The notes under the pieces are model-generated. The model was not told the origin of the DNA. It saw nothing but the letters and a program-made list of their open reading frames with translations, and ran no database searches. From contig JAIFNF010000041.1 of assembly GCA_020047885.1 (NCBI GenBank), forward strand, positions 1 through 9,410: 9,410 bases of DNA. The letters are read 5' to 3'. Positions 830-9,259 of the stretch are shown piece after piece. The translations under genes and the position numbers were made by a program. The DNA comes from Gammaproteobacteria bacterium. Its GTDB lineage: Bacteria; Pseudomonadota; Gammaproteobacteria; Competibacterales; Competibacteraceae. Every line of letters starts with the position of its first letter. Position 1 is the stretch's first letter.

Positions 830-1666
830 TTATGCATGGCGCAACTGCAGCCGCCAGATGAGTCCGACCGTAATATCATCCCCGCTGCCTTGTTGCGAGG
901 CTTCATGGAGCCAGCCGGTCAAGTTCGGTTTCACGGCCTGCTCGCCTTCATCGCGCAGGAGCGCCCAGTAATCCCGCGCCACTTGCTGAAAACTGGCATC
1001 GTCGCGGTAAGCGTTGGCGTAGCCGTCGGTGGCCGCGAGAATGAGCGCGGGTGGTGCGCCGGCCAGGGTTTGGAAATAGATTTGTACGTCGTTCCACGCC
1101 TTGGGGGAACACAGCGAAGTGGTTTCATTGGCGATCAACCGGGCGTCTTTGGGGATCGGGCGCACCACGTCACCGGATTCCGAAACGGTCAGCAGGTCGC
1201 CATCGCCGAGTTGCAGGTAGAGGATGAAGTTCGCAGCGACGACCACCGTTAGCAGCGTCGTACCGTAAGCCAGTGCCGGGAGCGCTTCGAGCTGGCGGCG
1301 GGCGGCGGCGTCCAGCGGTTCCAATTCCTGTGCAGTGAAGGGCTGGCGCTGGAGCGACCGTTTTACCTGCGCTTGCCAGTGCCGCACGAGAGCCAATGGC
1401 AATTGTTCTTCCGCCCAGTGTTTGATTTGCGAGGGGCTGCCGAGGGTGAAGAGATGACTGCACACCTTTTGCGCGATCGCGACAGCCAGGCGGGCACCAC
1501 GCTGACTGCGAAAACTCTTGGCGCTGCCGTGGCCGTCCGCTAGGGCGACGATCAGCGGTACGTCATCCCGGAACTGGGCGATGCGGATGGCGTCCTGATT
1601 CGGCAATCCGGCGCGGTGATGGGCGGCGCCGCGGACACTGGCTTTGAGGGTCTGCCAATCGTGCAT
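830..1666 (-). CDS. PP2C-family Ser/Thr protein phosphatase (PphC/YegK-like)
   Basis: This 278-residue PPM/PP2C-type phosphatase probably removes phosphates from Ser/Thr placed by the kinase of the same operon. Metal-coordinating motifs appear in family order: NQD near residues 23-25, ADGHG with Asp44-Gly45-His46-Gly47, a central LGDGDLL strand, the ATDGY motif in the second half, and GDDITVG close to the C-terminus with Asp263-Asp264. No membrane segment is evident, so it is cytosolic. It is the last gene of the operon. I chose the ATG at 1666, just after the VWA stop codon at 1675, because the protein then begins like PphC-type enzymes (MHDWQTLKASVRG). A GTG at 1681 overlapping the VWA stop is the alternative and adds five residues. 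No clear Shine-Dalgarno is visible at either, which points to translational coupling. E. coli pphC sits in the comparable yegI/pphC/yegL cluster. Confidence 0.9.
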   Translation of the reverse strand: MHDWQTLKASVRGAAHHRAGLPNQDAIRIAQFRDDVPLIVALADGHGSAKSFRSQRGARLAVAIAQKVCSHLFTLGSPSQIKHWAEEQLPLALVRHWQAQVKRSLQRQPFTAQELEPLDAAARRQLEALPALAYGTTLLTVVVAANFILYLQLGDGDLLTVSESGDVVRPIPKDARLIANETTSLCSPKAWNDVQIYFQTLAGAPPALILAATDGYANAYRDDASFQQVARDYWALLRDEGEQAVKPNLTGWLHEASQQGSGDDITVGLIWRLQLRHA

Positions 1667-1674
1667 GAGCGCGG

Positions 1675-2382
1675 CTACCACACGTCGGCGGCGGAATCGG
1701 GTTTACCCAGCGATACGGGCGGGACGGGAATGGGCACGTTGACGCCTGCGGGGATCGCACCCGCCGCCTGACTGGCTGGGGACGAGGCGGATTTGAGGAC
1801 GGCGGTGGACACCCATTTGATGGAGCGCACCAGCGCCTCGGGGTTATTGGCTTGCAACGGGTGCAGTTCCGGGTGGCCGATAAACTTCTGCAAGACTTCG
1901 GTATCGGCGTCTTCGCCAATCGCAATGGCGATGCGCACGGCCTTTTTGCCCCACGGTTCATCCATCAGCGCTTGCAGGCCCTTGGCGAAATCGTCGGTGG
2001 GCTGACCATCGGAGATCAGCACCAGCACCGGAGGCAAGGCGCGGTCGGTCATCGGCGGGATGCGGAGTTGTTCGGCCAGCATGGTCAGCGCCCGACCCAG
2101 ATCAGTGACCCCATCGGCGGGCAAGTCGGCCCATTTGAAATCAGCGACCGGGGTGGGTTGGGAAACGTGCCACTGCGCCCCGGTCGAGAACTTGAGCGTC
2201 CGCACCAGCACCTCGGCGTTGGGGTTTTCATCAGCAACGCTCTGCATGTGCGGCAAGGCTTCCCGAATGGCGTTATTCAATGCCTGAATCTTGCCGTCGA
2301 TGGACATGGAGCCGGAACAGTCAGTGATCCAGATGAAATGCAGCGGGCGGGTGGCTAATTCACCGCCGGGGCGTTTGGCCAT
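1675..2382 (-). CDS. TerY/YegL-like von Willebrand factor A domain protein
   Basis: This 235-residue protein has a single VWA domain with an intact MIDAS metal site: Asp21-x-Ser23-x-Ser25 in TDCSGSM, Thr93 in the GVTDLG turn, and Asp125 in the LISDGQPTDD strand. VWA domains with a complete MIDAS bind Mg2+ or another divalent ion and organise protein complexes; the closest recognisable group is TerY/YegL (COG4245-like), found beside kinases and PP2C phosphatases. From about residue 195 the tail becomes Ala/Pro/Ser-rich low complexity, probably flexible. The ATG at 2382 has a good upstream AAAGGAAA about seven bases away. The gene ends overlapping the possible GTG start of the phosphatase and lies 73 bp after the DUF1566 gene. 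Its partner or target is not visible in the sequence. Confidence 0.92.
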   Translation of the reverse strand: MAKRPGGELATRPLHFIWITDCSGSMSIDGKIQALNNAIREALPHMQSVADENPNAEVLVRTLKFSTGAQWHVSQPTPVADFKWADLPADGVTDLGRALTMLAEQLRIPPMTDRALPPVLVLISDGQPTDDFAKGLQALMDEPWGKKAVRIAIAIGEDADTEVLQKFIGHPELHPLQANNPEALVRSIKWVSTAVLKSASSPASQAAGAIPAGVNVPIPVPPVSLGKPDSAADVW

Positions 2383-2455
2383 GGGGGTTTCCTTTGGGTG
2401 AGAGGTAGATATTGGTTCAGCACAGCCCGGTAAAGGTTGCCTATGTAAAGTTTAA

Positions 2456-3298
2456 TCACAGTCCGCCGCGCACGAGGCGCACATGTGTGCTGTACACCTT
2501 ATCGTAGGAGTACACGTAGCCATCGTTGAAGTTCACGTAACACACGCCGTCTGGATAGCCGGTGCCAATCGAGGAGGACCAGTACCACGACGCTGACGCG
2601 GGCGTATTCGGGAACGCAGCTTGATCGATCTTGGGGGATTGTGTACCCGCAAGCAGTTTTTGTAGCTCTTCCTTCGTCGGTACCCGCCAGTCACGGTAAC
2701 CGGCATAGCCACCTTGGCGATTGAGCGCGTCCGCCGCATGGAGCGCCTCTTGCCATGTGTATTTTTTTGCCTGACCAGTGCAGGTTCCGTTTTTCCATTC
2801 CTGCCCCAAGGAAAACCGCATCCATTGCAAACCAGTCAGCACGTCGGTCACAGTACCATCGTCGTTATCTCGATAACGAGGGGCAATCAACGGCTTATTT
2901 GCAAGTGTTGGAGGGGCAGACATAACCTTGCGAGCAGTAGACAGTGGGGCGGATGATACTGGCGTCGGCTTGGCCATGGGTGAGGGTTGCACAATAACGC
3001 CCAACGCCAGCGCCCACGATTCCACCGCCCAATGTGCTGCCTCAGTGGTCATCGCCAATTCATCTTCCAACCGCTTATACAATCGCGCCAGCACCATGGA
3101 TTGAGGGATTCCAGCCGGTGCCTTGAGCAAATCTTCGGCGACGCGATTCTTGAGGGCGCTAACCAGTACGAAAATCTCCCGCTTGTGCTGCCCACAATAA
3201 TCTCTCAGCAACGCTTCACAACGACGTGGGTCATCGCATAAAGAGCGCCCATATTCGACGATGAGTTCACGCAGTTTCTGACGGGGTGTATCGTGCAT
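2456..3298 (-). CDS. Adaptor-like N-terminal domain fused to DUF1566 (Lcl C-terminal) domain
   Basis: The 280-residue protein has three parts. Residues 1-101 form a helical-looking domain with three early cysteines (21, 27, 35) and the block AVESWALALG at 91-100; 70 of its first 100 residues are identical, without gaps, to those of the LRR protein in the same operon. Residues about 102-137 are a Pro/Ser/Thr-rich linker. From about residue 138 to the end lies a DUF1566 domain, recognised by DNDDGTVTDVLTGLQWMR, RDWRVPTKEEL, WYWSSS and the terminal VRLVRGG. DUF1566 is related to the C-type-lectin/formylglycine-generating-enzyme fold and usually serves ligand binding. No signal peptide precedes it, so a cytosolic role is likely. 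The ATG at 3298 follows GAGAAA; the upstream bases resemble those before the LRR paralogue, so the ribosome site seems duplicated too. Function of the N-terminal domain is unknown. Confidence 0.9.
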   Translation of the reverse strand: MHDTPRQKLRELIVEYGRSLCDDPRRCEALLRDYCGQHKREIFVLVSALKNRVAEDLLKAPAGIPQSMVLARLYKRLEDELAMTTEAAHWAVESWALALGVIVQPSPMAKPTPVSSAPLSTARKVMSAPPTLANKPLIAPRYRDNDDGTVTDVLTGLQWMRFSLGQEWKNGTCTGQAKKYTWQEALHAADALNRQGGYAGYRDWRVPTKEELQKLLAGTQSPKIDQAAFPNTPASASWYWSSSIGTGYPDGVCYVNFNDGYVYSYDKVYSTHVRLVRGGL

Positions 3299-3337
3299 AA
3301 TAAATTTCTCAGATATTCAGAGACCCAAGACCGTTCT

Positions 3338-3574
3338 TCAGGCGGCGAGCATTTTATTGGCGTAATCTCGACCAGCGGTCATCGGGGGCAACGGCTTACC
3401 GTCTTGCTGATACTGCGCCATCACGTCCTCGACGATAGCGCACAACTCCGCAAACACCTGCTGTTCATCCTGACCGTGACAGCCCCCATAAAATAATCCG
3501 GGGCAACTGCCGACAAAGCACTGATCTTCTTCAGACCATTCTACAATCTTGACGTAGTAAACGCTGGGTTTCAT
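3338..3574 (-). CDS. hicB: HicB-family antitoxin
   Basis: This 78-residue protein matches the HicB-like antitoxin fold (partial RNase H-like): a first strand YYVKIVEWSEED, then the conserved CPGLFYGGCHG loop, and the helix DEQQVFAELCAIVEDVMAQY. HicB binds and neutralises the HicA mRNA interferase. At this length it lacks an obvious C-terminal helix-turn-helix or ribbon-helix-helix, so if the pair autoregulates it is not through a classical added DNA-binding domain. Its ATG overlaps the hicA stop by four bases (ATGA at 3574-3571), so translation is coupled. It ends about 40 bp before the DUF1566 gene. Confidence 0.9.
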   Translation of the reverse strand: MKPSVYYVKIVEWSEEDQCFVGSCPGLFYGGCHGQDEQQVFAELCAIVEDVMAQYQQDGKPLPPMTAGRDYANKMLAA

Positions 3575-3768
3575 TTTTTGGATTCCTCAATGGCGGCTTT
3601 CACCGCATTTTCCTGATAGCGGTGCACATCGTCGCCCGGTTGACCAGAAATCACGACTGGTTTATTCAGCTTGGAATGGGTGAAATTGCGATGACTTCCT
3701 TTTCCACCTCGGTTAGCAAAACCGGCTTGCTGCAAATCTCGAATCAACTCCCGAATCTTTTTAGGCAT
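3571..3768 (-). CDS. hicA: HicA-family toxin (mRNA interferase)
   Basis: This 65-residue protein is a typical small HicA toxin with a double-stranded-RNA-binding-like fold. The signature GGKGSHRNF holds the catalytic His26, preceded by the helix IRELIRDLQQAGF and followed by the strand KPVVISGQPGDD. HicA cleaves mRNA and slows growth when free of HicB. Gene order (toxin first) and the 4-bp overlap with hicB are normal for the family. The start lies only 12 bp after the kinase stop codon, with a weak GAAG-type ribosome site overlapping that stop. The toxin reading frame and catalytic histidine are intact, so the pair is likely functional. Confidence 0.92.
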   Translation of the reverse strand: MPKKIRELIRDLQQAGFANRGGKGSHRNFTHSKLNKPVVISGQPGDDVHRYQENAVKAAIEESKK

Positions 3769-3780
3769 GGCTTGGTTTCT

Positions 3781-5097
3781 TCAAATCCGAATCTCGCCTT
3801 CAACGTGGCCGAAATTCACCTTGACGCCGACCGCCAGCCCGACGCTGCGTCCGGGTTCGACATCGTGAATCATTCCGTCAGTGGTGGTAATGACCCACTT
3901 GGCAGCGGACAGATTTTTCAGGCCCCAGAGATTCCGGTTCTGCGGATGCTGCTGGATCACCGCCACCGGTTGCGACAGGTCATAAAGCCGTTGGGGATCA
4001 ACATGGTGGGGATAGAGTTGGGTATCGTGATTGAGCATGATCACGTCGCGCCCGAGGCGGAGCCGGAATGGGAGCGTCAACGGCTGCTGACAAGACCAGC
4101 AAGCGCCGGGTTGTCCACTATTCGCCCGCAACGCTTCCCCGTCATAAAAGTTCTCTGCGCCGCAATGCCCACAGTACAGAATCGCATCGCGCAACTGCAC
4201 CAGCGCCGCCCGCCATTCGCTTTCCCGAATCCGGGCATGGGGATCGTGCAGACCCGCTGTGAAGGCGCGGGTCAAGCGGTCGCGCAGGAATTGCGGATAG
4301 ATCGGCCAGTACGCTAACGGATTGTCATGCAGACCAGGGACGGGACGGTTGGCGGCATTGGCAGGGTCGAAGATAAACAGCGGCTCGGTGCCGTAAAGCT
4401 TGTTCATCGCGGGCAGATCGAAGCATTTGATCGCGGCTTCCTGCTGCCCCTCCAGCGGATGATGAATGTGGAACAGGTAGAACAGCAGGACGGCCAGCGA
4501 GAATAAATCGGTTTGGGTGCTGGGGGATGCTTCGCCGCGCACCACTTCCGGGGCGATAAAGCGCGGGGTGCCGAGAACACCACTGTTGCCCTGGCCGTCA
4601 ATGGCGACATTGTCGTTATCGCAGACCTGAATATCGCCGGTGTCCGGGTCGAAAAAGACATTGCCGAAGGAAATATCCCGGTAGCACAGGCCCTGGGCGT
4701 GGAGTTCCAGGAACGATTGCGCCAGTTGCAGACCCGCGGTGGTCAGGGCGCGGAACGAGGGTTCGATGCGCCGCTTCATCAGATCGACGATGCCTTTATA
4801 GCGCGGTTCGCGCAGCGGCATGATGTAGCCAAAACCGGGAACGCCGGATGCGGCAGCCAGTTCCATGGGCCAGAGAAAATGCGGACTGGGTGGGCCTTTG
4901 CGGATCAGGGTATCGAGGCTTTGCTGTTGGGCGGGCGTGGCCTGTTCCGGGAAGTACCACTTGAGGGCGACTGGTTTGCTGCCTAATTGGGCGCGGTAGA
5001 CTTCGCCCTGGCCGCCGCCGCCCAGGAAGGTTTCGACCGTGCAGGGATGGCCGGAGGCGGTTTGAACCGTGGAACGGAGCTGCAGGAGTTGGTGCAT
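3781..5097 (-). CDS. Ser/Thr protein kinase with zinc ribbon and FHA-like C-terminal domain (YegI/TerY-P type)
   Basis: The 438-residue protein opens with a protein kinase domain (about 20-300): glycine-rich loop GGGGQG at 26-31, ATP-anchoring Lys46 in VALK, catalytic loop YRDISFGN (Tyr139-Arg140-Asp141, Asn146), Mg2+-binding Asp160 in DND, and APE at 182-184. The HRD histidine is Tyr and DFG is DND, but all catalytic acids and the lysine are present, so activity is plausible. A zinc ribbon follows with Cys309/Cys312 and Cys333/Cys336. The last 100 residues are rich in strands (MLNHDTQLYPHH, WGLKNLS, INFG-like VNFGHVEGEI) and look like an FHA-type beta sandwich, which I infer rather than recognise with certainty. 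No membrane helix is evident. It starts 19 bp after the LRR gene and runs into hicA. With the PP2C and VWA genes it completes a kinase-phosphatase-VWA triad. The ribosome site is weak (GGA eight bases upstream). Confidence 0.93.
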   Translation of the reverse strand: MHQLLQLRSTVQTASGHPCTVETFLGGGGQGEVYRAQLGSKPVALKWYFPEQATPAQQQSLDTLIRKGPPSPHFLWPMELAAASGVPGFGYIMPLREPRYKGIVDLMKRRIEPSFRALTTAGLQLAQSFLELHAQGLCYRDISFGNVFFDPDTGDIQVCDNDNVAIDGQGNSGVLGTPRFIAPEVVRGEASPSTQTDLFSLAVLLFYLFHIHHPLEGQQEAAIKCFDLPAMNKLYGTEPLFIFDPANAANRPVPGLHDNPLAYWPIYPQFLRDRLTRAFTAGLHDPHARIRESEWRAALVQLRDAILYCGHCGAENFYDGEALRANSGQPGACWSCQQPLTLPFRLRLGRDVIMLNHDTQLYPHHVDPQRLYDLSQPVAVIQQHPQNRNLWGLKNLSAAKWVITTTDGMIHDVEPGRSVGLAVGVKVNFGHVEGEIRI

Positions 5098-5116
5098 GGG
5101 GGGATTCCAACGAGCC

Positions 5117-6271
5117 TTATGGGAGAACGCGGGTGTTCGGCAACATTTGCTTTAGTTCTTGCAAGCGAGCGTGGCTTATATTTTGGCATTCACTCAAATT
5201 AAGTGTTTTCAGTTGGGTCATATGCCCTAAATGAGCTAAGACACCTGGACCAGTAATTTTCTTGAATCCACTTAAATCAATAACTTCTAAATTATTAAGT
5301 TTTTCGAGGTATTTTAAACCTTCGTCAGTAACAAAAATATTTCCAAAAATAACTTTAGAACTTAGGTTTAAATTTATTAAACTGTTATAGTTGCTTATGT
5401 AATTAAAACACCTATTTTGAATAGAACTACATCCACTTAAGTCAAGATATACTAAATTTTTAATAATTTTAAGGTTCATCCAATATTCTCTAAAAAAATC
5501 ATGTCCCAATATATTACAAAAACTTAAATCAAGAAATTCCAAATTAATAAATTTTTTAATGTGCATTAATTTGCCGTCATCAAAGTTTTGACATCTACTC
5601 AAACAGAGTCGATTAATTAAGAGATTTGGATCACACATTTCAAGAAAATAGAAATCAGTCACATCTTCAGAAATTTTGAGTTCGACCATTTGCCCTTGAG
5701 GCACGTCAATTTCACCTACAGCAGATTGTTCTTTACCGCCAATTTTAACTTTCCCCACGCTGAATCTAGGAAACTTCAACTTTCCACCAGCAGAAGATAC
5801 TGGAGAAGCAGTAATCACAGGTGAAATGCTATGGGTAGCAAGTTGAGTAGGTTGAAACGCAACGAAATCACGATCTAATCCATGGATGAATTTTGGTGAA
5901 ATACTCTGGGCAACAGGTTGAGTAGGTTGAACAGGAGTCGGTACGGAAACCGGCAATGGCTGACTAATCACGCCCAGAGCCAATGCCCACGACTCCACCG
6001 CCCACTTTGCCGCAGTTTCAGTCAGACCCAATTCATCTTCCAAGCGCTTGGTCAGGCGCGAGAGCAAGATCACTTCGGGTACTCCTGCGGAAGCATTGAG
6101 CAGCTCCGTAGCCACCCGGTTTTCCAGCGCATTGACCAATACGAAGATTTCCCGCTTGTATTGGCCGCAATGATCCTTGAGTAGCGCGCCGCAACGGCGC
6201 GGGTCTTCGCACAGGGAGCGACCATATTGGGCGATGAGTTTGCAGAGTTGCTGGCGGGGTTCGTTGTGCAT
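5117..6271 (-). CDS. Adaptor-like N-terminal domain fused to leucine-rich repeats
   Basis: The 384-residue protein starts with the same N-terminal domain of about 100 residues as the DUF1566 protein (gapless alignment, block AVESWALALG at 91-100). A linker of about 90 residues follows, with a duplicated QPTQ..SISP segment. The C-terminal half is a leucine-rich-repeat array of at least five units (LEFLDLSFCNI, LVYLDLSGCSSI, LINLNLSS, LEVIDLSGFKKI, LKTLNLSECQNI), of the cysteine-containing type used for protein binding. I chose the ATG at 6271 because GAGGAAA (6284-6278) lies six bases upstream and the protein then aligns residue for residue with its paralogue; an in-frame TTG at 6286 is less likely. 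The LRR part (about 5160-5700) is far more AT-rich than the N-terminal part, suggesting a chimera. It is followed after 19 bp by the kinase, so the LRRs may recruit a kinase substrate or trigger. Confidence 0.9.
   Translation of the reverse strand: MHNEPRQQLCKLIAQYGRSLCEDPRRCGALLKDHCGQYKREIFVLVNALENRVATELLNASAGVPEVILLSRLTKRLEDELGLTETAAKWAVESWALALGVISQPLPVSVPTPVQPTQPVAQSISPKFIHGLDRDFVAFQPTQLATHSISPVITASPVSSAGGKLKFPRFSVGKVKIGGKEQSAVGEIDVPQGQMVELKISEDVTDFYFLEMCDPNLLINRLCLSRCQNFDDGKLMHIKKFINLEFLDLSFCNILGHDFFREYWMNLKIIKNLVYLDLSGCSSIQNRCFNYISNYNSLINLNLSSKVIFGNIFVTDEGLKYLEKLNNLEVIDLSGFKKITGPGVLAHLGHMTQLKTLNLSECQNISHARLQELKQMLPNTRVLP
5821..5931 (-). repeat. Imperfect 36-bp direct repeat inside the LRR gene linker (75-bp period)
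   Basis: Positions 5821-5856 and 5896-5931 match at 31 of 36 bases. The offset of 75 bp is 25 codons, so the reading frame is kept and the protein repeats a QPTQ...SISP motif. This looks like an in-frame duplication that lengthened the flexible linker. Confidence 0.8.
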
Positions 6272-6318: not shown

Positions 6319-7407
6319 TTAATAACTTTGGTTCTTCAAAAGCATTAGTTTACTTGATAATTCAGGATCTCTTTCTTCGAACTGAATCGATCTTTTTTTT
6401 GCTTTCCTTAATACCTTGATAAAGCTGGGTAACCGGCTAATTTTTCTTTGAATAGAATATATTATATGCTTCGTTTTTAAATTTTCATTTTCAATTTTCT
6501 TCTCGCATAAAAACTGACGTTGATATGAATATATTTTTTTATCAAAATATTTTTGTGTTATGTCTTTAATATAGCTTTCAAGATTTCTATTTGAATAACC
6601 AATAAGAGAATTTGCTCCACGTACTTGCATCTCATTCAGGAAATCCACATCCCATACATTAAATAAATCGCTAAGATCAGATTTTTTTGTCCCATATTTG
6701 TAAGATTTCCCATCGTATGCACATAAATACATATTTTTTGATAGAGGCATAAATAACTGAATGCCTTTAGCTGACAGGCTACCTATTCTTTTGTCATCAA
6801 GATCTTTATAAAGCCAGTTGTAGCGTATTATTGGATGATCTGAAATAATAAATTCTCGATCAGTTTTATTAACTAATAAATGAAGTTTAAGATCTTCCAT
6901 TGCCTTGGAATCAATCAGACCTGTCAATGTAAGTTCAGCAGTAAAATTTCGTAAAGCATCATTTCCATCAGGAACTATTCTAAAATCTTCTGAGTTTTCT
7001 GTATCGAGATTATTTAGTCTTAACAGATCCGAAACGATTGATTGAAAATGAAAATTAAAAAACTCAAGTGTATTTTCTCGATACTCTACTGTGCGGTAGA
7101 GCTGACAACATATAAATTTTATTAAAATATTACCTGAATTTAAAGCGGATAAATCAAGTTCTCTGAGCTTTCTAATTAAAATTGATGCGGGCGTCTCTAT
7201 ATGTGACTCTAAAAAATTCTCAATTCTATTATTCTTATCATAAAAATAATTTTGAGAAAAAACATTTTTAATTGGTTGATTAAACCTAAAATTTTTTTTT
7301 TGAATAATAAAAATATTTATTTTAGGATCTTTGCCTTCTAATATATTAAATCCTTTTAATAAAATCTGTGGAACATAATGTTGGTTTTTTGTGAATTTAT
7401 TTTTCAT
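6319..7407 (-). CDS. DUF4238 family protein, AT-rich
   Basis: This 362-residue protein shows DUF4238 hallmarks: the N-terminal NQHYVPQILLKGF (8-20), a FSQNYFYD segment near 50-57, the ENFLESHIETPASILIRKL helix (63-81), an RTVEYR motif (105-110), and ISDHPII (188-194) followed by a hydrophobic strand with LFMPLS. The biochemical activity of the family is not established to my knowledge; members are scattered across bacteria and often sit in variable islands. No signal peptide or membrane span is visible; the C-terminus is rich in Lys/Arg. The ATG at 7407 follows GAGAA. Base use is strikingly AT-rich, with runs of A and T, unlike the flanking GC-rich genes, which points to recent transfer. It ends 47 bp before the LRR gene start on the same strand with no clear terminator between, so it may be co-transcribed. 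Confidence 0.85.
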   Translation of the reverse strand: MKNKFTKNQHYVPQILLKGFNILEGKDPKINIFIIQKKNFRFNQPIKNVFSQNYFYDKNNRIENFLESHIETPASILIRKLRELDLSALNSGNILIKFICCQLYRTVEYRENTLEFFNFHFQSIVSDLLRLNNLDTENSEDFRIVPDGNDALRNFTAELTLTGLIDSKAMEDLKLHLLVNKTDREFIISDHPIIRYNWLYKDLDDKRIGSLSAKGIQLFMPLSKNMYLCAYDGKSYKYGTKKSDLSDLFNVWDVDFLNEMQVRGANSLIGYSNRNLESYIKDITQKYFDKKIYSYQRQFLCEKKIENENLKTKHIIYSIQRKISRLPSFIKVLRKAKKRSIQFEERDPELSSKLMLLKNQSY

Positions 7408-7524: not shown

Positions 7525-8646
7525 TCAAAGCTCAAACGGCGCTGGCAGACCATATTCGGCAAAAAGCTTTGTCAAACCACCCAGACCTAATCCCATCACC
7601 TTCGCCACTTTACGGGCGGAAATCTGACCTTTATCCAGTGCTTCATGCAGCATCTGCACTAATGAGACAGAGAACAATTTAGGCGGCTCGGCTACCGATG
7701 GACGCTGCTTCTGTTGGCAAAGATCGCGACGGGTATCGTCATGGATCAGCTTGAGATTGAACAGTCGCCACGCCAGCGCCATAGGGGTAACGCGCAACCG
7801 GGCGGCGACTTCGCACAAATGCCCCAGGTCGTTACAGCGATGACGGTCGAGGGTTGAATCGAGCGAGGCTTGCGGCATCAGCAACGCGGCAGCGAAATTG
7901 TCAGCTAACTGCTCAATGCGCTTGCCTTTATTGCGTTCATCAAAAGTGTTTGATTCCCGATGATCCGGTTTCATCGCTTCCCAGGTCAGCGCGTGAAACA
8001 GTTCATGCGCTAGATTATAAAACTGTCGCCCTTCCGGTTCCTGCCGGTTAATCAGGATAACGCTCAGCTCCTCCAAGTGGCAGGTCGCCCCCGAAATGGA
8101 TTGACCGTAGTTTGTTCCCACGGTATCCACGAACAGCACCGGGATATCCAGTTCGCGTTCAACCTGATCAATCAGGCTCTCCGCAGGAATCATCCCCAGA
8201 TTGAGTTCAGTCGCCAAACCCTCAGCCCGCGCCTGAGCCACCTCAAATGAGGATTGCGCCGTCAGCCGCAAGGTGCGCTTGAGGACGCTCGTTCGATGGT
8301 CCTGCCGCTCACGCAACCAGCGCAACAGACCGATCCATTGGCTGGCTTGCCGTTCAAACAGGTCAAGATGTTCCTCAGATATCTCGGGAGCGACGCGCCA
8401 TGAAAATCGAGCCTCGCCCGTCACGGCGAAGGGGTCGAGGAAGAATTCAACCTCCCGATTCAGCAGATCGGCCAGCGCCAATAGTTCATCCGATTTCACC
8501 CCGCGCTTGCCGTTCTCAATGTCGGAAACCGACTGTCGATCCTTCAACGCAAGTCCCTGGGTGAGCTGATCCTGAGTCCAGCCCTTGGCCTCACGCGCCG
8601 CTCTGACACGATAACCAATGAATTTATTAGCGATTTTTTCGAGCAT
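7525..8646 (-). CDS. XRE-family regulator fused to ImmA/IrrE-type zinc metallopeptidase
   Basis: The 373-residue protein joins an N-terminal XRE helix-turn-helix (about 10-66; RAAREAKGWTQDQLTQGL, then RQSVSDIENGKRG as recognition region) to an M78-type peptidase. The active site is HELFH at 214-218, and the third zinc ligand is probably Glu245 in EQLADNFAAALLMP. Family members such as ImmA/ImmR and IrrE/DdrO switch mobile-element or stress genes by cleaving a repressor; fused forms are often regulators of toxin-antitoxin or defence loci. The ATG at 8646 is chosen because AAGAGGT lies seven bases upstream and the HTH begins normally; the frame is open further, but only from a TTG at 8724 that lies upstream of the promoter. 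A strong -10 and palindromes just upstream suggest autoregulation. A 117-bp gap separates it from the DUF4238 gene downstream on the same strand. Confidence 0.94.
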   Translation of the reverse strand: MLEKIANKFIGYRVRAAREAKGWTQDQLTQGLALKDRQSVSDIENGKRGVKSDELLALADLLNREVEFFLDPFAVTGEARFSWRVAPEISEEHLDLFERQASQWIGLLRWLRERQDHRTSVLKRTLRLTAQSSFEVAQARAEGLATELNLGMIPAESLIDQVERELDIPVLFVDTVGTNYGQSISGATCHLEELSVILINRQEPEGRQFYNLAHELFHALTWEAMKPDHRESNTFDERNKGKRIEQLADNFAAALLMPQASLDSTLDRHRCNDLGHLCEVAARLRVTPMALAWRLFNLKLIHDDTRRDLCQQKQRPSVAEPPKLFSVSLVQMLHEALDKGQISARKVAKVMGLGLGGLTKLFAEYGLPAPFEL

Positions 8647-9203: not shown

Positions 9204-9259
9204 GGATGTTTCAAATTGAAACATTTGACGTTTCACCGTTATTTCAAATTGAAACATCC
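9204..9259. promoter_or_regulatory. Tandem palindrome array, candidate regulator binding sites
   Basis: ATGTTTCAAATTGAAACAT (9206-9224) is a perfect palindrome around its central A. TTTCAAATTGAAA (9242-9254) repeats its core, with centres 33 bp apart, close to three helical turns. The flanks GGATGTTTCAA (9204-9214) and TTGAAACATCC (9249-9259) make the whole block an inverted repeat, and a further GTTTCA half-site lies at 9230-9235. This layout is typical of cooperative dimer sites, such as enhancers of sigma-54 activators, but I find no good -24/-12 promoter next to it. Confidence 0.6.

Follow-up and report, generated by a model that had tools for sequence, protein, structure and literature searches.

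A shared N-terminal domain accompanies a TerY-P-like kinase–phosphatase–VWA triad and may attach exchangeable receptors to it

The window considered here is the whole 9,410-nt stretch at positions 1 to 9,410 of contig JAIFNF010000041.1 (assembly GCA_020047885.1), from a gammaproteobacterium of the Competibacteraceae. It encodes a Ser/Thr-type protein kinase, a PP2C-type phosphatase and a VWA protein, which together we call the triad, and two proteins with different C-terminal modules, leucine-rich repeats (LRR) and a DUF1566 domain, that begin with the same N-terminal domain (NTD). Across genomes, the NTD co-occurs with the triad and its modules are swapped beside a conserved core; in one relative, NTD genes are diversified by a diversity-generating retroelement (DGR). 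We suggest that the locus probably encodes a TerY-P-like phosphorylation switch into which a layer of receptors is plugged. The features that carry the argument are as follows.

5117..6271, minus strand: NTD-LRR protein, 384 residues; open reading frame (ORF) with LRR_4 (Pfam, E 4.8e-6), NTD by comparison and profile
5957..6271, minus strand: NTD copy 1, 105 residues, in the NTD-LRR protein; predicted six-helix domain without a Pfam family
3781..5097, minus strand: Ser/Thr-type protein kinase, 438 residues; Pkinase (Pfam, E 9.1e-16)
2456..3298, minus strand: NTD-DUF1566 protein, 280 residues; Lcl_C (DUF1566; Pfam, E 1.2e-30), NTD by comparison
2984..3298, minus strand: NTD copy 2, 105 residues, in the NTD-DUF1566 protein; matches copy 1, profile E 2.5e-58
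1675..2382, minus strand: VWA protein, 235 residues; VWA PF00092 (Pfam, E 3e-5), weak PADLOC match to TerY (E 0.016)
830..1681, minus strand: PP2C-type phosphatase, 283 residues; PP2C_2 (Pfam, E 1.1e-42)

The ORF listing places all of these genes, and the neighbours listed further below, on the minus strand at these positions. The preliminary description had them on one strand with short gaps, and the spacings agree with it, all being overlaps or gaps of 12-73 bp: 19 bp from NTD-LRR to kinase, 12 bp from kinase to the HicA-like gene, a 4 bp HicA/HicB overlap, 39 bp from HicB to NTD-DUF1566, 73 bp from there to the VWA gene and a 7 bp VWA/PP2C overlap. In the NTD-LRR protein, the NTD (6271-5957) is followed by a linker and the repeats (about 5686-5117), and in the NTD-DUF1566 protein, the NTD (3298-2984) is followed by a linker and the Lcl_C domain (2857-2468).

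The catalytic residues of the kinase, described beforehand as an intact Lys/Asp/Asn/Asp set, are K46, D141, N146 and D160, and these are invariant, together with D162, in 28 aligned relatives. The metal motifs of the phosphatase and the metal ion-dependent adhesion site (MIDAS) of the VWA protein were likewise as first described: both proteins have Pfam matches, and by eye we read what we take to be the PP2C motifs (DGHG, ATDG, and SGDD) and the MIDAS residues (DxSxS, T, and D). Towards its C-terminus, the kinase has a zinc-ribbon-like stretch with four putative zinc-binding cysteines (309, 312, 333, and 336), invariant in the same 28 rows. Its last 141 residues were modelled with a mean pLDDT of 93.7, and residues 339-438, approximately, are predicted to adopt an FHA fold (Foldseek probability 1.00, E 0.013; VIA Z to 9.6), which is a call of fold and not proof of homology, since no Foldseek E-value reached 0.001. 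In one relative, a second kinase ORF (L168:4212-6857, minus strand) lies beside the triad kinase; it consists of a canonical kinase and, joined to this, a second version of the triad kinase in which the four-Cys and FHA part is present and the catalytic residues appear, by eye, to be degenerate. A second kinase match occurs in at least 5 of the 31 kinase genomes of the class of genome G004 (see below), including G577 (L169), G606, G709, and G723; L168 is the one scanned closely.

The two NTDs of the window share 79 of 114 residues (69%, E 6e-56), far above chance, and the earlier statement that the LRR and DUF1566 proteins begin with the same domain is thus correct. No Pfam family was found for the window's NTD. 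An alignment of 77 of the 100 near-complete NTD copies (some near-duplicates were dropped) gave, at E<=1, scattered weak Pfam matches, each in at most 4 of the 77 rows and with a best E of 0.003, among the 25 of 43 families listed. Structure prediction gives six helices with a mean pLDDT of 95.8, and a structure search with this model returned no confident relative among solved folds. The domain begins within the first 25 residues in 92 of 98 NTD ORFs. We conclude that the NTD is a domain family without a name.

Pattern scanning of genome contigs with the NTD alignment gave 62 loci, in whose flanks, within the fetched stretch, triad genes were sought with the window's proteins and with profiles. 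All three triad genes are present in 37 of the 62 loci and at least one in 49; the kinase is found in 46, against about 0.19 expected (one kinase per 4.5 Mb at random), and at E<=1e-60 it is present in 49 of the 56 genomes examined behind these loci. A single NTD gene is present in the fetched stretch of 20 of the 37 complete-triad loci, and two or more in 17. The order of genes is not fixed: the NTD gene may precede the triad genes, follow them, or sit among them. The hosts belong to many phyla. By record title they include Proteobacteria, Chloroflexi, Cyanobacteria, Nitrospina, Riflebacteria, Acidobacteria, Armatimonadetes, Verrucomicrobia, and Acidimicrobiia, that is, about nine phyla, with complete triads in about seven (titles as deposited, some perhaps wrong). 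That the NTD should recur next to the triad in unrelated genomes, joined to differing C-terminal modules, had been set beforehand as the test of the idea, and these loci, which come from unrelated phyla, bear it out. What has to be revised is the view that the NTD proteins are an addition to the triad operon: they accompany this subfamily of kinases almost constantly and are not a local expansion.

The association is also seen when the kinase is the starting point. In the class of G004 (396 genomes), the kinase (E<=1e-60) is present in 31 genomes, the NTD (E<=1e-6) in 37, and both in 29 (Fisher 2e-34), with an NTD within 3 kb of the kinase on the same contig in 27 of the 31. Removal of the 11 genomes that belonged to the NTD scan leaves 385, with 20 kinase genomes, 26 NTD genomes, and 18 with both (p 8e-23), 17 of 20 being adjacent. 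The two kinase-only genomes of this class have the kinase on contigs of 4,998 and 6,102 bases (L170 and L171). In the order of G002 (195 genomes), the counts are 10 (E<=1e-60), 12, and 9, and all nine pairs lie within 1.7 kb; among the genomes new to the NTD scan, both are present in five of six kinase genomes (p 1.6e-7). The tenth kinase genome of this order (G311, L111) has an FGE protein beside the kinase with a weak NTD match (E 0.008). The order of G003 (40 genomes) has six kinase genomes (E<=1e-100), nine with the NTD, and six with both, all from the NTD scan, and in the phylum of G004 (151 genomes), the three kinase genomes are the three NTD genomes, two of them already in the scan. We treat the p values as guides, because the genomes are related, the samples overlap, and kinase candidates were limited in number.

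The modules attached to the NTD are diverse. Among 86 of the 98 NTD proteins (the set excludes two longer than 800 residues and ten that are short, partial, or X-bearing), FGE-sulfatase is found in 15, Lcl_C in 13, and WD40 in 10 (Pfam; 25 of 132 families listed), and the range of partners takes in LRR, WD40, TPR, ankyrin, beta-helix, FGE-sulfatase, DUF1566, and a binding-protein domain. Family scans of 20 single proteins added or repeated ankyrin, MCPsignal, beta-helix, MORN, SH3_3, TPR, PEGA, Phosphonate-bd, RDD, and DUF1232, and several of these proteins have a module without any family match; 4 and then 5 further proteins were scanned in the same way. GrpE (PF01025) is found on a further NTD protein (P0110). 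In several proteins (with Phosphonate-bd in L040 and L056, with SH3_3 in L029), a simple hydropathy script predicts that the NTD and the module are separated by a membrane segment; it predicts none in the window's two NTD carriers. On a Methylomonas plasmid, the kinase, VWA, and PP2C genes are followed by five NTD ORFs (L178:9894-14430) with Sel1, Tim44-like, Clp_N, and zf-C4_ClpX modules and one unmatched; the Clp_N domain and the ClpX zinc finger hint at a link to Clp proteolysis. Two unusual ORFs were noted. L041:9177-10004 carries a VapB antitoxin domain, an NTD, a predicted membrane segment, and a PEGA domain. L039:907-3237 joins PP2C, NTD, and LRR, which are separate adjoining genes in L033; the joining may have arisen by natural fusion, through loss of a stop codon, or as a sequencing error. 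It is the one case in the 62 loci of an NTD on a core ORF (E<=1e-3).

Within these proteins, the modules change faster than the NTD. Between the window and its relative L001, the kinase is 94.5% identical, the VWA protein 90.6%, and the PP2C 83.3%; the NTD of the NTD-LRR protein is 90.5% identical and the remainder 60.3%, and in the NTD-DUF1566 protein, the NTD is 84.8%, the linker 39%, and the last 60 residues 53% identical. At locus L048, two NTD-FGE genes lie beside the kinase, together with a reverse transcriptase (RVT_1, E 6.3e-15, at L048:5967-7073), a template repeat, and, where the contig ends, a fragment of a PP2C gene; no VWA gene was seen in this stretch. The two NTD-FGE variable repeats differ from the template at template adenines in 11 of 17 (p 1e-4) and 14 of 19 (p 1e-6) mismatches. 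Among the fetched stretches of the 62 loci, L048 alone has a clear pair of template and variable repeat. Its two NTD-FGE genes are DGR targets, which points to receptors. The Thiocystis genome G321 has a DGR (L132:1661-6999), on a contig other than that of its triad, with two DUF1566 targets, one of them in an 819-residue ORF, each with 18 of 20 mismatches at template adenines; the NTD-DUF1566 gene of the Thiocystis triad locus L014 compared to this template has 22 of 30 mismatches at adenines (p 1.7e-6). For the window's own NTD-DUF1566 gene, the figure is 19 of 44, which is not significant (p 0.038 uncorrected, one of 14 comparisons), and selection on the fold could produce such a bias.

The remaining genes of the window are the following.

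7525..8646, minus strand: HTH-M78 gene (HTH and M78 peptidase, ImmA/IrrE-like), first in transcription order
6319..7407, minus strand: DUF4238 gene, second in transcription order
3571..3768, minus strand: HicA toxin-like protein; HicA_toxin (Pfam, E 4.6e-10)
3338..3574, minus strand: HicB antitoxin-like protein, without a Pfam match and presumed to be HicB from its place after HicA

The hicAB pair had been counted as part of the system. Relatives of both HicA and HicB are found in the window and in only 4 of the 62 loci (L001, L003, L006, and L010; phmmer E<=1e-4), and on this distribution, the pair is probably a lineage-local passenger. Neither HicAB nor DUF4238 shows, across the 62 loci, a co-location link with the triad comparable to that of the NTD. 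The best PADLOC match of the upstream HTH-M78 gene is RmrA (E 3.4e-26), and since L001 (a fragment) and L007 have relatives of it close to the triad, the gene may be a linked regulator. Upstream of it, at 9206-9224 and 9241-9257, are two near-identical palindromes with the core TTTCAAATTGAAA, possibly operator sites.

We propose that the kinase, with its zinc-ribbon-like and FHA parts, the PP2C, and the VWA protein form the conserved core, beside which NTD proteins with swapped modules are encoded. The NTD would dock a receptor onto a core protein, and not solely onto another NTD; we infer this because just one NTD gene is present in the fetched stretch of 20 of the 37 complete triads. When a ligand binds to the attached module, be it LRR, DUF1566, or another, the balance between kinase and phosphatase would then shift, with the VWA protein perhaps serving as scaffold or substrate binder. 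The output may be a stress or anti-invader response, and this is the least certain step. The preliminary description had suggested that the inputs or outputs of the switch are swappable through the shared domain. The varied modules agree with swapping; we favour inputs over outputs because many modules are receptor-like, some lie behind a predicted membrane segment, and some are hypermutated. It is possible, as a more tentative extension, that the NTD is a universal socket by which many sensors, some DGR-varied, plug into the kinase–PP2C–VWA core, giving a hypermutable receptor-to-phosphorylation pathway, likely for recognition of invaders or non-kin.

Several observations weigh against this proposal. 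For 13 of the 62 NTD loci, the stretch fetched lacks any triad gene; the kinase lies elsewhere in the genome for nine of them, and for four (L002, L019, L061, and L062), it was not found anywhere in the genome. In the samples started from the kinase, NTD genomes with no kinase match number 8 of 37 (class of G004), 3 of 12 (order of G002), and 3 of 9 (order of G003), some of these being at contig ends or having PP2C and VWA genes (L139 and L176). In three genomes, intact NTD-FGE genes stand as orphans on stretches of 12-16 kb each with no triad match (L134-L137); some of their neighbours are aminotransferase or weakly DUF4351-like genes. The Fisher values take no account of how closely the genomes are related, and scoring in the larger samples covered only the 4 to 11 best kinase candidates of each genome. 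For the NTD-DUF1566 gene of the window itself, no DGR was found, and the MCPsignal modules, like Clp_N and zf-C4_ClpX of the Methylomonas plasmid, suit outputs as much as inputs.

The same data can be read in other ways. The NTD could be an effector-associated domain (EAD), with NTD–NTD contacts assembling the carriers and the modules acting as effectors released or activated by the triad. It shares with EADs the trait of being small and, on its predicted structure, all-helical, and its presence on at least two genes in the 17 multi-NTD complete triads is as for the EADs in the available text of PMC7159879. According to that text, one EAD copy is always on a core component (PMC7159879), whereas the PP2C ORF of L039 is the only core ORF with an NTD in 62 loci. 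The 38 NTDs of multi-NTD loci in the 77-row alignment have their nearest relative in the same locus in 15 cases and elsewhere in 23, and nuclease, TIR, caspase, and trypsin domains were not named in the singly scanned NTD proteins (the bulk scan listed 25 of 132 families). The loci with a single NTD gene and the near absence of the NTD from core ORFs speak against a purely homotypic adaptor, and we consider the EAD reading unlikely. A different possibility is that the NTD proteins are substrates or outputs and that phosphorylation controls the attached module. The predicted FHA fold of the kinase would suit the holding of phosphorylated partners, and Clp_N, zf-C4_ClpX, MCPsignal, and GrpE could be outputs. 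However, the usual phosphothreonine-binding residues of an FHA domain are not evident by eye, the 77-row alignment has no Ser or Thr position conserved in 90% of rows (S19 and S94 do attain this among 18 close relatives), and the hypermutation of NTD-FGE genes and the faster change of module ends fit ligand recognition better; this reading seems to us rather improbable.

Simple co-location, a shared neighbourhood without joint function, could draw on the patchy presence of the kinase (31 of 396, 10 of 195, and 6 of 40 genomes) and on its two plasmid-borne relatives. Yet adjacency persists across many phyla despite changed gene order, co-occurrence is strong from the kinase side, the 46 kinase loci far exceed the expected 0.19, and HicAB and DUF4238 show no such link. 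Such an origin was already disfavoured and is highly improbable.

If a plug-in receptor layer is indeed present, it bears on a gap around these triads. TerY-P-like triads are reported to act in phage defence and stress (PMC11090510, PMC7699616), and we came across no account of what they sense; a shared domain carrying recognisable sensor-like modules to the triad would put a name to this absent input layer and open it to testing. It would further connect the diversification of proteins by retroelements with Ser/Thr phosphorylation.

The closest known system is the TerY-P triad, a TerY-like VWA protein, a PP2C, and a Ser/Thr kinase fused to a zinc ribbon in the available account (PMC11090510); antiphage activity is reported for TerY-P or TerY-P-like modules in the accessible parts of PMC11090510 and PMC7699616. 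The window shares the three proteins and the four-Cys stretch at the C-terminus of the kinase, and by each sequence feature tested (VWA with MIDAS, adjoining PP2C, and kinase with a C-terminal zinc-ribbon-like stretch), its triad is TerY-P-like, as first proposed. It differs in the additional, putative NTD receptor layer and in a kinase that also ends in a predicted FHA fold; for the ten window proteins scanned, Pfam gave neither a Ter nor a restriction family. A Prevotella plasmid (L179:6618-14379) has a TerY_C protein beside kinase, VWA, and PP2C genes, its kinase being 35% identical over 428 residues. Two later proteins of this plasmid, one of them FGE, share an N-terminal region (20.8% over 125 residues, E 1.4e-4) that has no NTD profile match, and the shared-domain rule may extend beyond the NTD because this region is a different one. 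The E. coli genes yegI/pphC/yegL, also likened to the window beforehand, are likewise kinase, PP2C, and VWA-type genes lying close together, but similarity to the window is limited (kinase 20% over 235 residues, PP2C 41% over 71, and VWA 29% over 101), and the ORFs of this 12 kb region have no NTD profile match at E<=10. The actinobacterial GAP1-N2 systems, in the portion of PMC7159879 available, combine PP2C and vWA genes with a kinase–zinc ribbon–beta domain protein, so that the trio is shared and the zinc ribbon is accompanied by a domain rich in beta-strands; the window showed no GTPase/GAP1 gene, and that portion does not mention shared-domain receptors. DGR-diversified CLec/FGE sensors of conflict systems have STAND NTPases or MoxR/VMAP systems as partners in the available text of PMC10907252. 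As in L048, FGE-type modules are diversified there beside signalling genes, whereas the partner in L048 is a kinase–PP2C(–VWA) core with the NTD. The matches listed by our literature search included no paper describing the NTD with a kinase–PP2C–VWA triad. We regard the triad itself as of a known kind and the putative NTD receptor layer as the part that appears new.

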